From Nitrospiraceae bacterium (lineage in GTDB: Bacteria > Nitrospirota > Nitrospiria > Nitrospirales > Nitrospiraceae): DNA of 64,000 nt. The position numbers and the translations under genes were made by a program. This document shows, piece by piece, positions 36,300 through 41,012 of the stretch. The notes below the pieces were generated by a model that saw nothing but the letters and a program-made list of their open reading frames with translations, searched no databases and had not been told where the DNA came from. Where the stretch lies: assembly GCA_035623075.1 (NCBI GenBank), contig DASPUC010000019.1, forward strand, positions 1 through 64,000. The letters run 5' to 3'. The first letter of the stretch is position 1, and each line of letters begins with the position of its first letter.

Positions 36300-36671
36300 A
36301 TGTCGTCTGTACTCGTCGTCGATGATGAAGAGCAAGCCCGTCAAGTGATCAGGGAAACGCTGGAACGAGCGGGCCATCACGTGCGGGAAGCGCGAGACGG
36401 GAAAGAAGCGCTCTTGCTCTTTCGGCAGAGCCATGCCGATCTCGTGATCATGGATATCCTTATGCCAGACCAAGACGGATTAGAAAGCATTGTCTCTTTG
36501 CGCCGAGAATATCCGAAAGTGAAGGTCATAGCCATCACGGGTGGCACAGACATGATCGGAATTCTCACCTTCCTCGACGTCGCCAAAATGCTGGGAGCCA
36601 CGCGCACGCTACAGAAACCGTTTGAGATGCGTGCGCTTCTCGACGCCGTCGCGGAGGAAGTTCCGGCGTAA
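36300..36671 (+). CDS. Stand-alone response-regulator receiver protein
   Basis: 123 residues, one CheY-like domain: VLVVDDEEQARQVIRETLER with the acidic pair, the phosphoacceptor Asp in ADLVIMDILMPDQDG, Thr in AITGGTD and the conserved Lys in RTLQKPFEM. There is no output domain, so it must act by protein contact. AGGA five bases upstream fixes the ATG at 36300; a longer start at 36261 is possible. No sensor kinase lies next to it; the nearest kinases are at 55492 and 57456. Confidence 0.88.
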   Translation: MSSVLVVDDEEQARQVIRETLERAGHHVREARDGKEALLLFRQSHADLVIMDILMPDQDGLESIVSLRREYPKVKVIAITGGTDMIGILTFLDVAKMLGATRTLQKPFEMRALLDAVAEEVPA

Positions 36672-36758
36672 TCCTGCCATCAGTTCATTCACCATTTCCT
36701 TTTGTTGACAACCATGCGGTGAAGACCCACACTGGCCTGCCTAGTGGAAACACGTTTC

Positions 36759-37217
36759 ATGGAAGACCAAATTGTGATGACGCCACGGTGGTGGGTGCGA
36801 CCGTTACACGTCACACTCGGTAGTCTCGTGGTGGTCGTCGGAGCATGGCTGGCTTGGGACGCGCCGTCCCTGAACTGGATGGTCGTGCTGACAATCGCTG
36901 CGGGAGGATTTTTATCGTGGCGGGGGTCCACGATCAGGCTGACGTGGGCTTGGACGACGCTATTCTTAGGCCTGGAAAGTCTGACCTGGCCTCTCGTGAC
37001 CATGTACCAAATCCGTCAATCGACAATGGACCCCAATGACGACCAGATGAGTATGATCCTCTCTGCCGTCTTGTTCGGACTCTTTTCAGCTGTCTTCTGG
37101 ATTTCATTTGCGTATGGATTGTTCAATCGGACCGGCAGCGAACACGGAGATGTGCCTGTTGCGGCTCTGGCCCCCCGGCCTGTCGCCCAAACTGAACGCC
37201 GAGGGAACAAGCGGTGA
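36759..37217 (+). CDS. Membrane protein of unknown function, 152 aa
   Basis: Three or four predicted membrane helices: about 18-35, 38-52, 60-78 and 98-120 (SMILSAVLFGLFSAVFWISF). A short cytoplasmic or periplasmic tail follows. No family recognised. ATG 36759 is used, with GGAAA about nine bases upstream; a GTG at 36744 is an alternative. Its stop lies four bases from the convergent stop of priA. Confidence 0.6.
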   Translation: MEDQIVMTPRWWVRPLHVTLGSLVVVVGAWLAWDAPSLNWMVVLTIAAGGFLSWRGSTIRLTWAWTTLFLGLESLTWPLVTMYQIRQSTMDPNDDQMSMILSAVLFGLFSAVFWISFAYGLFNRTGSEHGDVPVAALAPRPVAQTERRGNKR

Positions 37218-37220
37218 GAC

Positions 37221-39341
37221 TCACCGCATCTCGATCGGATCGACATCCACGTCAAACTTCACCGATCGCCGACGGAAAGCCCGTTCCATCTCCTCAACCG
37301 ACCACCGGATGGCTTGCAGTGCCGCTTCCCGATCAGTCGACTTGATCAAGATCTGCCACCGGTATCGCCCCCGGAGTCGAGGCACTGGCGAAGGAGCTGG
37401 GCCGAGTACCATCAAGCGACTGGGTTCGTCAGACACGCTGGCGTTGCTTGTGCCACCTTTTGTACGGATGCTCAAAGACACACCGTCCCTTAATCGAGCC
37501 GTCCACGTTATCGCAGCACCTTGTACGATTGATTCGCGAACGCCTGAGACATGGAGGGCAATAAGGTGAACTGCGGGAGGGTATCCCAGTGCCACTCGGT
37601 GAGAAAGTTCGGTCGAGATGAACAACGATTCATCATCCTCCACCACCGCTTGTATGGCATGATGAGTTGGATGATAGGTTTGAATGACAACGGTGCCTCC
37701 GTCTGAAGCTGGCCGTGCGAGATCAATAGCATCGAGAAGTGTGTGATACGTTCGCTCCGCGGCGCGAAAATCCGCGACGCTCAGTCCCGCGTCGGCCTGC
37801 ACAATGCCGACGACGCCAACTAGAGGAATGGCCCTTCGCCGAAAAAGGAGTTGTGTTCCCACAAGGACATCCCACTCACGCTTCTGGACCTTCTGCCACA
37901 TAACGGCCGCCTGAGACGGGCGCTTCATTGTATCTCCGTCGACGCGGAGAACCCTTGCTGAAGGAAAAAGCCGCCGCACTTTTTCCTCGACCCGCTCCGT
38001 CCCTTCACCGATTACCGACAGCCCCGATCCTCCACAGGCGGGACAGGTCACAGGAACGGCAATTGAGTCACGACAGTACGAACATGTGAGGCGGGCACTC
38101 TGGCGGGAGTAAGTTCGTGCGACGCCACAAGTCTGGCAGCGCGGCACCAGACCACAGTCCCGACAGGCGAGTGCGCTGCCATAGCCTCTTCGGTTCAGAA
38201 ACAGTATGGCTCCAGATTGTTCACGTAAGGCCACGCGCATGACTTGCATCAGTGGCTGACTCAAGCTTACTCCCTTTTCCTGCTGTCGGAGGTCTACCAC
38301 TTGGATCCCAGGCCTTGAATCGGGGGGTGGGGACTGATGAAACACGCGGCCTCGATGCTTGACCTGTTCGATGGTCTCAAGTAAAGGATGGGAAGAGCCT
38401 AGAACCAGCATTCCTTGTTCATCTTGGACCCTCAGCCAGGCCACATCACGGGCGTGATAGCGCGGCTCCTGTGGTTCTTTCAGCGCAGGATCTTCTTCTT
38501 CATCCACCCATACCAATCCCAAGTTCCGTACTGGAAGAAAGATGGCTGAACGTGTGCCGACGACGACCCCGACGCTATTCTGGCTCAACTGCTGCCAGAT
38601 ACGAGCCCGCTCATCGGAGGGCAAGCCGCTGTGATAACAGACAACCGTTTGTTCCGAAGCATGTCGCAGTGAATTCGCAAGCCATTCGGCTTGTTGAGCT
38701 TCTCCGACGATGACCATAGAAGTCCTCTGGCTCCCGCCGACAGCCAAAGGCACCGTCTGTCGTAACAACGCCAGCCGAACGGTCCATGGAGCATGGACGA
38801 GGGCTCTCGATGCTGGATGGTATTGCAGCGATTCAACGATCTCGTCCCGCCACGCTGCCGAGACAGCGACAGGAATCGACGTCGAAGAGCAGCCGGAGAG
38901 AGGAAGATGTGACTCAATTCGTGCATTGTTGGGTAATCTCGCCTTCCTTGGCCGCACCGCAGCCTCCGACAGAGCCAGCGGTGGGAGCACGAGTCTCAAG
39001 CACTGTCCCCACGGCGCGATATACTCCTTCGCAATGCGTCGTGAAAGATCGAGCAGTGCCCCTGGCACTTCAGATGAGTAATCTCCTCGGAACAGTCCGC
39101 GAATTTCCTTGAGTTTGGCGCGCTCTAGACCTTGCGGCAATGAGCACATCAACGCTGTGACAGCCCCTCCCAAAATCGATGATCCAAAAGGAACCAACAC
39201 CCGGTGTCCGACCCGCAGCGAGCCCCGAAGTTGTGCAGGAATCCGGTAGGTGAAAGGACCGATCAGATGTCGAGGGACGATGACGTCGGCATAACAAGCT
39301 TCAGCAGCTGGTTCGTGAACGGCCGGAGGAGGACTCCCCAT
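37221..39341 (-). CDS. priA: PriA-like primosomal protein lacking ATPase motifs
   Basis: 706 residues, PriA architecture: N-terminal 3'-DNA-binding domain (ADVIVPRHLIGPFTYRIPAQ), a helicase body, eight zinc-binding cysteines (CRDC, CQTC, CSYC, CPAC) and a C-terminal domain. PriA restarts stalled replication forks by recruiting DnaB. Here the Walker A site (normally GVTGSGKT) is gone; the aligned region reads AVSAAWRDEIVES. Walker B is DEEED instead of DEEH. Motif V's KGHDFP is FRRRAIP, and the arginine-finger motif VI (QVAGRAGR) reads DAIDLARPA. The gene frame is open throughout, so this looks like a maintained pseudohelicase rather than a decayed gene. Confidence 0.9.
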   Translation of the reverse strand: MGSPPPAVHEPAAEACYADVIVPRHLIGPFTYRIPAQLRGSLRVGHRVLVPFGSSILGGAVTALMCSLPQGLERAKLKEIRGLFRGDYSSEVPGALLDLSRRIAKEYIAPWGQCLRLVLPPLALSEAAVRPRKARLPNNARIESHLPLSGCSSTSIPVAVSAAWRDEIVESLQYHPASRALVHAPWTVRLALLRQTVPLAVGGSQRTSMVIVGEAQQAEWLANSLRHASEQTVVCYHSGLPSDERARIWQQLSQNSVGVVVGTRSAIFLPVRNLGLVWVDEEEDPALKEPQEPRYHARDVAWLRVQDEQGMLVLGSSHPLLETIEQVKHRGRVFHQSPPPDSRPGIQVVDLRQQEKGVSLSQPLMQVMRVALREQSGAILFLNRRGYGSALACRDCGLVPRCQTCGVARTYSRQSARLTCSYCRDSIAVPVTCPACGGSGLSVIGEGTERVEEKVRRLFPSARVLRVDGDTMKRPSQAAVMWQKVQKREWDVLVGTQLLFRRRAIPLVGVVGIVQADAGLSVADFRAAERTYHTLLDAIDLARPASDGGTVVIQTYHPTHHAIQAVVEDDESLFISTELSHRVALGYPPAVHLIALHVSGVRESIVQGAAITWTARLRDGVSLSIRTKGGTSNASVSDEPSRLMVLGPAPSPVPRLRGRYRWQILIKSTDREAALQAIRWSVEEMERAFRRRSVKFDVDVDPIEMR

Positions 39342-39419
39342 GCGGCATTTTAACAATAGGAGAAAAGGCGGAACAATGTCGGAATGACACAGTTACCGGG
39401 AGCTGCGTGTCCAGCACGA

Positions 39420-39448
39420 AAGGGGTGGCGGAGAAACCGCCACCCCTT
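39420..39448 (-). terminator. Rho-independent terminator of the OmpA-domain gene
   Basis: A 12-bp stem AAGGGGTGGCGG with its complement around a five-base loop, 20 bases past the stop at 39468. On the minus strand it is followed by a short TTTC run. Confidence 0.75.
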
Positions 39449-39467
39449 GTCCCGATGCCTCACTGCC

Positions 39468-41012
39468 TTACTGAGAGGGAGGAACTGAAGGATTGCTAGG
39501 AATTCCGGGGTTCTGATTTGCCCCTGGCTGGTCAGCGGGCGTTGGAGTGGAATCCGTGACGGGAGGCGAGGAAGGTTTCACCTCAGCCGGAGCCGATGAG
39601 ACAGCTGGAGTCGGCTTCTCATCCTGCACTGCCTGACTCGCGCCCTCTTGTGAGCCAAGACTTGAAAAACTGTACCCACTCTCCGCAGTCTCCTCCGGTT
39701 TCGTCGCTGGCTCCTCAGATGGCTGTTCAGCCGTATCCGGGGCATACAGCACCACGTCGATGCGCCGATTCTGTTCACGTCCAGCTTCTGTCGCGTTGCT
39801 GGCGATCGGTCGCGTTTCGCCGAAACCAACAGACGACAAGCGGGCCGAATCCAGACCACTTTTCTCGAGAATGTAGCGAACGACCCCACTGGCTCGCGCT
39901 TTAGACAGGTCCCAATTAGTTGGATAGCGCGATTTGAGAGAGGGACCGATCTCCATGTTGTCGGCATGACCTTCCACACGAATTAGCTTATCTCCTGCCT
40001 CGGTCTTCAGATACTCCACAACCTGATCCAGCACCCGATAGCCTTCTGGCTGGATCGTAGCTTCACCTGATTCAAATCGGAGCTGTCTTGCCAGATCGTT
40101 GAGGTTGATCCTGGTCTCCCCCGCGACGTTCTGGACATAAAATTTGCGTGATACAGGTTCTTGTTTCGATGGAGCAGCAGGCTCGCTCGCGATCGACCGC
40201 GTCTGTTGCGAGACCGGCACTGCTTCAGGGGCACGAACTTTCGCACGAACCAGGTCTCCTTTAATGAATCGGGAGGTCGACGTCGATACCAGCGCAGAGG
40301 CCGTTCGAGCTTCCGGCCATAGTATCTTGATTTCGCCCACAACCCGAGGCGGAAGGTTCCCCCCCACGCGGAAGACTTCCAGCCGATCACCAGTTTTCAC
40401 ACCGTCTTCCCAGCCCTTATCGATGTAGACGACGTTCCGCTGTGCCACCAGCGTCATTTCTCGATCGGCTTGAAAATCCACGATCATCCCTCGAACTTCA
40501 CGCTCTGCCGACTGGTCCGTCGCCATTTCCCCGGGGACCGGAAGCGAAAATTTTATAACCGGGTTCCCAGGTTCCAGTGCTCCATAGGATCGAATTGCCC
40601 GGACCGTCGTCAACTGATCGTCAGTCTGAACGACCTGAACGATGGCGAGACGTTGAATCAGGTAACCAAGATATTGACCAGTGGCAGGATGGAATACCTT
40701 TCGAGCTCGTTTATAGACTGTAAAGAGATCTCCGACGGTGACATCACCAGGATTTTTTAAGCGGAGGTAGACGGTATCCCGTTGGCCCACAATCATCCGA
40801 TCGCCCGTCGTTTGATTGTCCCCCGTGACAAGGTTGACGACACCATCCTGAGGTGTTGATGTCTGGATAGAACCAGATGCATAGGTAAGAGCCTTGTCGC
40901 CGTATCGAATACTCTGAAGGCTCTCGAGATCATCGGCCCACGCAGCGGGCGTGATTGGGACTAGCAGGGCTAAAACCAAAAGAAGCGGGGGAAGTTGCAA
41001 GGGCATGTTCAT
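39468..41012 (-). CDS. OmpA/MotB-domain envelope protein with proline-rich tail
   Basis: 514 residues from ATG 41012 (AAGGA eight bases upstream; an ATG at 41018 is too close to it). A signal peptide (about 1-25, PAAWADD) is followed by two repeated beta domains that resemble LysM-adjacent or flagellar-assembly-type barrels (GDLFTVYKRARKVFHPATGQ; GDRLEVFRVGG). An OmpA domain follows at about 280-420 with RVEGHADNMEIG and REQNRRIDVVLYAP. The last 90 residues are Pro/Ser/Glu-rich. It probably binds peptidoglycan. A good promoter lies upstream and a terminator downstream, so it is a single-gene unit. Confidence 0.8.
   Translation of the reverse strand: MNMPLQLPPLLLVLALLVPITPAAWADDLESLQSIRYGDKALTYASGSIQTSTPQDGVVNLVTGDNQTTGDRMIVGQRDTVYLRLKNPGDVTVGDLFTVYKRARKVFHPATGQYLGYLIQRLAIVQVVQTDDQLTTVRAIRSYGALEPGNPVIKFSLPVPGEMATDQSAEREVRGMIVDFQADREMTLVAQRNVVYIDKGWEDGVKTGDRLEVFRVGGNLPPRVVGEIKILWPEARTASALVSTSTSRFIKGDLVRAKVRAPEAVPVSQQTRSIASEPAAPSKQEPVSRKFYVQNVAGETRINLNDLARQLRFESGEATIQPEGYRVLDQVVEYLKTEAGDKLIRVEGHADNMEIGPSLKSRYPTNWDLSKARASGVVRYILEKSGLDSARLSSVGFGETRPIASNATEAGREQNRRIDVVLYAPDTAEQPSEEPATKPEETAESGYSFSSLGSQEGASQAVQDEKPTPAVSSAPAEVKPSSPPVTDSTPTPADQPGANQNPGIPSNPSVPPSQ

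Follow-up and report, generated by a model that had tools for sequence, protein, structure and literature searches.

A putative PriA pseudohelicase in a Nitrospiraceae bacterium and loss of the PriA ATPase motifs in Nitrospirales as sampled

The window (the whole 64,000-nucleotide stretch of Nitrospiraceae DNA analyzed here) contains, on the reverse strand, an open reading frame at 37221-39356 that has no internal stop codon and encodes PriA (Table 1). The start adopted here is the ATG at 39341, in agreement with the sequence-only reading; the TTG at 39356 is also possible and would give a protein of 711 amino acids. In the respective genome (3.39 Mb in 58 contigs, 99.93% complete), the window protein is the sole match above the cut-off of the TIGR00595 profile (about 380 bits, 379-380, against a cut-off of 230, with the match beginning at profile position 25). 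The remaining matches are short stretches of the shared core in other helicase-sized open reading frames, one of which, on contig C15, reads as a RecG that retains intact versions of its motifs (QGDVGSGKT, DEQH and QLRGRVGR). A profile search of the whole genome detects no second PriA above this cut-off, so that a separate full-length copy, which the sequence-only reading had named as an argument against itself, did not turn up in this almost complete assembly. Actinobacterial PriA proteins are not known to have a recognizable helicase motor. The window protein resembles them (PRK14873) in this respect and is of separate, active-type descent: it scores 454 bits with the active-type NCBIfam models PRK05580.1-3 and at most 187 bits with any PRK14873 model, far too low for an assignment to the actinobacterial type, which is rejected; its decay therefore started from an active-type PriA and was independent. 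These results show that the window gene is the PriA ortholog of its organism.

Table 1. Features of the priA gene and its product in the window
Feature	Position	Strand	Basis or remark
priA, putative pseudohelicase	37221..39341	(-)	706 aa from ATG at 39341
3'BD, DNA 3'-end binding domain, residues 24-125	38982..39287	(-)	Pfam PF17764 (PriA_3primeBD), 62 bits
Short linker, 56 residues	38805..38972	(-)	low-confidence stretch in AlphaFold model
Former motif I (Walker A): HAPWTVRLA, Arg at lysine column	38769..38795	(-)	alignment; two-residue loop in model
Former motif II and aromatic-rich loop: DEEEDPALKEPQEPRYHARD	38445..38504	(-)	alignment
Former motif III: LGSSHPLLE (Thr to His)	38376..38402	(-)	alignment
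Motif IV, retained: LNRRGY	38181..38198	(-)	alignment
Cysteine-rich zinc region, eight cysteines, kept	38034..38165	(-)	found in every PriA aligned
Former motif V: GTQLLFRRRAIPL, replacing GTQMxxKGHDFP	37821..37859	(-)	alignment
Former motif VI: HTLLDAIDLARPASDGG, without arginine finger	37695..37745	(-)	alignment
PriA C-terminal domain, residues 596-707	37236..37571	(-)	Pfam PF18074 (PriA_C), 58 bits

In the Walker A region of the window PriA, HAPWTV-RLA, with one residue deleted, replaces HGxTGSGKTEV. Motif II reads DEEED where DEEH is expected, motif III GSSHP where GSATP is expected, the core of motif V RRRAIP where KGHDFP is expected, and motif VI HTLLDAIDLARPASDGG where QxxTQVAGRAGRG is expected. 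The pattern QxxGRxGR, which characterizes motif VI of active helicases, is missing from the protein, where LLDAIDLARPAS is found, or LLDAIDLARPASDGG when the motif is read against the intact PriAs of Nitrospirota. In addition to motif IV, GTRSA and the ADFRAAER stretch remain. The protein contains no P-loop of the form [AG]xxxxGK[ST], nor does any reading frame within priA encode one, and the single match to this pattern within 36501-40000 is located at 36959 on the plus strand, outside the gene; a shifted or out-of-frame P-loop is thus rejected. The sequence-only reading, according to which the frame is open over 706 codons and GVTGSGKT, KGHDFP and QVAGRAGR are replaced, is borne out on both counts, and the shifted but intact GxGKT that would have told against it was found neither in the protein nor in any frame.

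An AlphaFold model of the window PriA, built from 44 proteins of the window's family (f1), its sister family in the same order (f2) and a further family of the same class (f7), has a mean pLDDT of 86.9 and a pTM of 0.85. The nine best PDB matches of this model are all PriA structures; the top one is 8fak (E 4.5e-50, 28% identity, TM-score 0.83 on the target) and the next, 6dcr, is a winged-helix deletion variant of E. coli PriA. In the modeled structure, the strand SRALVH is followed by only two loop residues (AP) and then by a helix, that is, the phosphate-binding loop is predicted to be collapsed to two residues. The window PriA presumably does not hydrolyze ATP, and binding of ATP at the altered pocket would be possible as far as the sequence goes. 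Compared to the active PriAs of E. coli and Klebsiella (PDB 8fak, 6dcr, 6dgd, 4nl4), the window protein shares the fold, the 3'BD, the zinc region and the C-terminal domain but lacks motifs I, III, V and VI and has an altered motif II.

Both Pfam domains, PF17764 and PF18074, are detected in the window PriA above their cut-offs, and its eight cysteines (residues 398-441, inside helicase lobe 2) correspond to two zinc sites of four cysteines each. These cysteines are invariant (100%) in the alignment of 137 proteins, in intact and dead PriAs alike, so that the zinc-binding cysteines are intact exactly as the sequence-only reading maintained. The same reading described the DNA-binding domain as intact, which holds for the 3'BD but not for the winged-helix region. 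Indeed, a linker of 56 residues separates the 3'BD from helicase lobe 1 in the window PriA, versus approximately 120-130 residues in most of its f1 relatives, and the missing piece appears to be the winged helix, to judge from its position and from the match of the model to the 6dcr deletion protein; no Pfam model for the winged helix of PriA applies here. According to the titles of PDB entries 6dgd and 6dcr, the winged helix contacts fork DNA in E. coli PriA. The domain, absent from the window protein, is not a defining feature of PriA across the phylum: linkers as short as that of the window protein are found in at least five other f1 members (L015, L016, L017, L021, L022), and many PriAs of the phylum with intact motifs also have equally short ones. 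Judging by these linkers, the winged-helix region appears to have been lost repeatedly and independently of the ATPase. The possibility that it was lost as part of the ATPase-loss event is rejected given that many intact PriAs are short and most of the dead ones of the order are long.

The alignment of PriAs from 137 Nitrospirota genomes shows that the motif loss is common to a clade, a point that the sequence-only reading had raised as one to be checked. Motifs I, V and VI are gone in all 39 PriAs of f1, all 16 of f2 and both of f7, whereas representatives of six other families of the same class (f3, f4, f5, f6, f8, f9) have intact motifs. In a second class, the motifs are gone in 48 of 48 PriAs from 13 families (twelve of these are listed as members of this class and one, f37, was placed by tree grouping), and seven families (f21, f31, f33, f35, f38, f39, f40) are intact. 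Thus, the ATPase motifs of PriA are lost throughout Nitrospirales as sampled, and because the loss seen in the window PriA recurs in 104 further proteins of the phylum, it is not due to chance or sequencing error. Among the named records listed, the motifs are absent from five Nitrospira or Nitrospirales PriAs (three Nitrospira MAGs, Nitrospirae SZUA-215 and Nitrospirales NPIRA06), and all 75 PriAs of other organisms possess Walker A together with a motif II of DEEH or DEEQ; the only deviation is in three of these 75, which do not match a strict motif VI pattern.

The Walker lysine is present in 100% of the intact PriAs, 2% of f1, 0% of f2 and 2% of the dead set of the second class. Among the 57 proteins of f1, f2 and f7, it is gone in all except one f1 protein, which has an aligned lysine with no P-loop around it. 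The second arginine of motif VI is found in 96% of the intact group and in 0% of all four dead groups, and both motif VI arginines are gone in 57 of 57 proteins of f1, f2 and f7. The replacements are themselves conserved: the lysine column is occupied by arginine in 94% of f1 and by glutamate in 87% of the dead set of the second class, and f1 additionally shows histidine in place of the motif III threonine (94%) and tryptophan two residues ahead of the motif II aspartate (87%), a hint that the former nucleotide pocket has acquired a new contact surface.

Several genomes depart from these patterns. The PriA of f36 (L066 from G203) has an intact Walker A motif (GIAGSGKT), an altered motif V (KGNDFP) and a decayed motif VI (QLAEKVGTG), and may represent an intermediate on the way to a pseudohelicase. 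In the f1 genome G105 (2.0 Mb, 99% complete), neither the window protein nor TIGR00595 detects a PriA, and only short helicase-core matches are found; either PriA may have been lost altogether from this f1 member with its small genome, or the assembly may have a gap. Likewise, G175, G239, G215 and G244 have no PriA above the cut-off. Three PriA matches, L075 (G201), G246:C22:7852-9795 and G113:C4, contain one in-frame stop codon each (TAA, TAA and TGA, respectively), which reflects either frameshifts or sequencing errors in MAGs or real decay.

In phylogenetic trees built without the motif columns (a careful tree of 59 rows and a quick tree of 92 rows), the dead PriAs do not form one group. 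The 59-row tree sets f1, f2 and f7 apart with support of 97/98, and the second dead set, supported at 100/100, groups at 100/99 with intact families from the class to which it belongs. One common origin of the dead PriAs as a whole is disfavored, being recovered in 0 of 200 bootstrap trees of the 59-row tree, but is not formally rejected by the AU test (p = 0.06 for the 59-row tree and p = 0.234 for the 92-row tree). Such an origin would require horizontal transfer because the two sets belong to different classes, each with intact members, and two losses are also favored by the difference between the replacement residues of the two sets. Two separate losses of the PriA ATPase within Nitrospirota are therefore likely, if not proven, on the strength of these trees and residues. 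In the PriA tree, f7 joins the Nitrospirales set although other families of its class are intact, and the simplest reading is one loss in the common ancestor of f7 and the order. The proposal of the sequence-only reading that a "second lineage" dropped the ATPase is correct in placing a loss beyond Deinococcus but too modest in its count, as trees and residues indicate that there were probably two inside Nitrospirota.

The dN/dS values for pairs of close relatives from f1 and f2 are between 0.15 and 0.33, low also in the helicase lobes and the zinc region, which shows purifying selection on the dead PriA in these relatives of the window gene, the own genus of which is represented by one genome. 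Early decay might first look like a loss of catalytic motifs alone; nevertheless, the possibility that the window priA is decaying as a pseudogene, or results from an error in assembly or sequencing, is close to negligible given the open frame, the invariant zinc cysteines, the loss common to 105 proteins of the phylum and dN/dS well under 1 in the relatives, and for the clade as a whole, conservation and dN/dS refute it. An atypical but active ATPase, in which arginine does the work of the Walker lysine together with those acidic residues that remain, would agree with the prevalence of this arginine in f1, with the acidic residues left in motif II and with the retention of motif IV. However, the K230R substitution alone abolishes both the ATPase and the helicase activity of E. 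coli PriA (PMC4504706), and the window protein has in addition lost the glycines and the threonine, the residues of motif V and both arginines of motif VI, with a modeled loop of two residues, which makes residual activity highly improbable.

The observations are best compatible with a quite probable scenario in which the ATPase-dead PriA keeps a structural role as an ATP-independent platform that binds forks for the reloading of DnaB, with DciA as the probable loader. The window PriA would bind forks and recruit DnaB and DciA: forks and D-loops would be recognized via the 3'BD, the dead helicase lobes, the zinc region and the C-terminal domain, PriA would serve as a landing platform, DciA would help DnaB back onto DNA, and a different helicase would unwind the lagging arm, unless this step is omitted, and carry out remodeling where needed. 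The genome encodes DnaB, DciA, RecG and two UvrD-type helicases; DnaT was searched for and is absent, an IstB/DnaC-type model yields weak, partial matches to open reading frames sized like other AAA+ proteins, and no other restart initiator was found in a search that did not extend to PriB and PriC. DciA is present in 97 of 98 genomes of the window's class regardless of whether PriA is intact or dead; its presence does not track the loss of the PriA motifs, so that DciA as a compensating gain is rejected. The absence of the winged helix from the window PriA is a point against the platform, and fork binding by this protein might differ accordingly. Together with the loss of the ATPase, it could instead suggest that PriA has left replication restart for another DNA-binding function, with restart proceeding via another initiator or directly via DciA; one related f1 genome shows no PriA at all, and the strong conservation of the replacement arginine and histidine in f1 fits a new role as well as a rebuilt scaffold. 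Such a departure is unlikely considering that the 3'BD, the zinc region and the C-terminal domain are still PriA-like and conserved, that DnaB and DciA are both present, and that no alternative initiator was found, with PriB and PriC outside the search. With respect to the platform role, a further and rather doubtful possibility is that Nitrospirota twice turned the PriA motor into a static platform and that each lineage rebuilt the pocket (lysine to arginine plus a deletion in Nitrospirales, lysine to glutamate in the second class) into a new protein contact, with DnaB or DciA, for example, which would take the place of the ATP-driven step in restart.

PriA of Deinococcus radiodurans has neither ATPase nor unwinding activity; it does bind ssDNA and forks and associates with DnaB in a complex, and E. 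coli K230R PriA, which has no ATPase activity, still assembles primosomes and supports viability (PMC4504706). In Caulobacter, cooperation between DciA and PriA has been suggested, not shown (PMC9825169). The pseudohelicase interpretation offered in the sequence-only reading is supported by the clade-wide loss and by the D. radiodurans precedent (PMC4504706), with neither an intact P-loop nor a second PriA found, and the protein is predicted to be inactive. Like the Deinococcus-Thermus proteins (PMC4504706), the window PriA is a PriA ortholog that keeps DNA-binding parts and has lost the ATPase motifs, f1 shares with them the arginine in the Walker lysine column, and DnaT is lacking in both cases. 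The Nitrospirota lineages differ in belonging to another phylum, with a probably independent origin, in being known here from sequence alone, and in the further extent of the loss, with one residue missing from the P-loop, motifs I, V and VI replaced and, in the window protein, the winged helix missing. No report of PriA motif loss in Nitrospira or Nitrospirota was found in the literature searched, with most subscription journals outside the search. PriA pseudohelicases are an already known kind of protein; what is unreported, as far as searched, is their occurrence in these Nitrospirota lineages and how far the loss goes there. There are probably two ATPase-dead lineages in Nitrospirota, in addition to those in Deinococcus-Thermus and, presumably, in Actinobacteria.

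The broad conservation of the PriA helicase motifs is the reason why the helicase activity is considered an advantage. The whole order that includes Nitrospira, together with much of the second class, would live without a PriA motor. Close families with intact and dead PriA would provide natural replicates for asking what purpose the motor serves, and the dead PriAs would isolate the parts that are sufficient for restart with a DciA-type loader.
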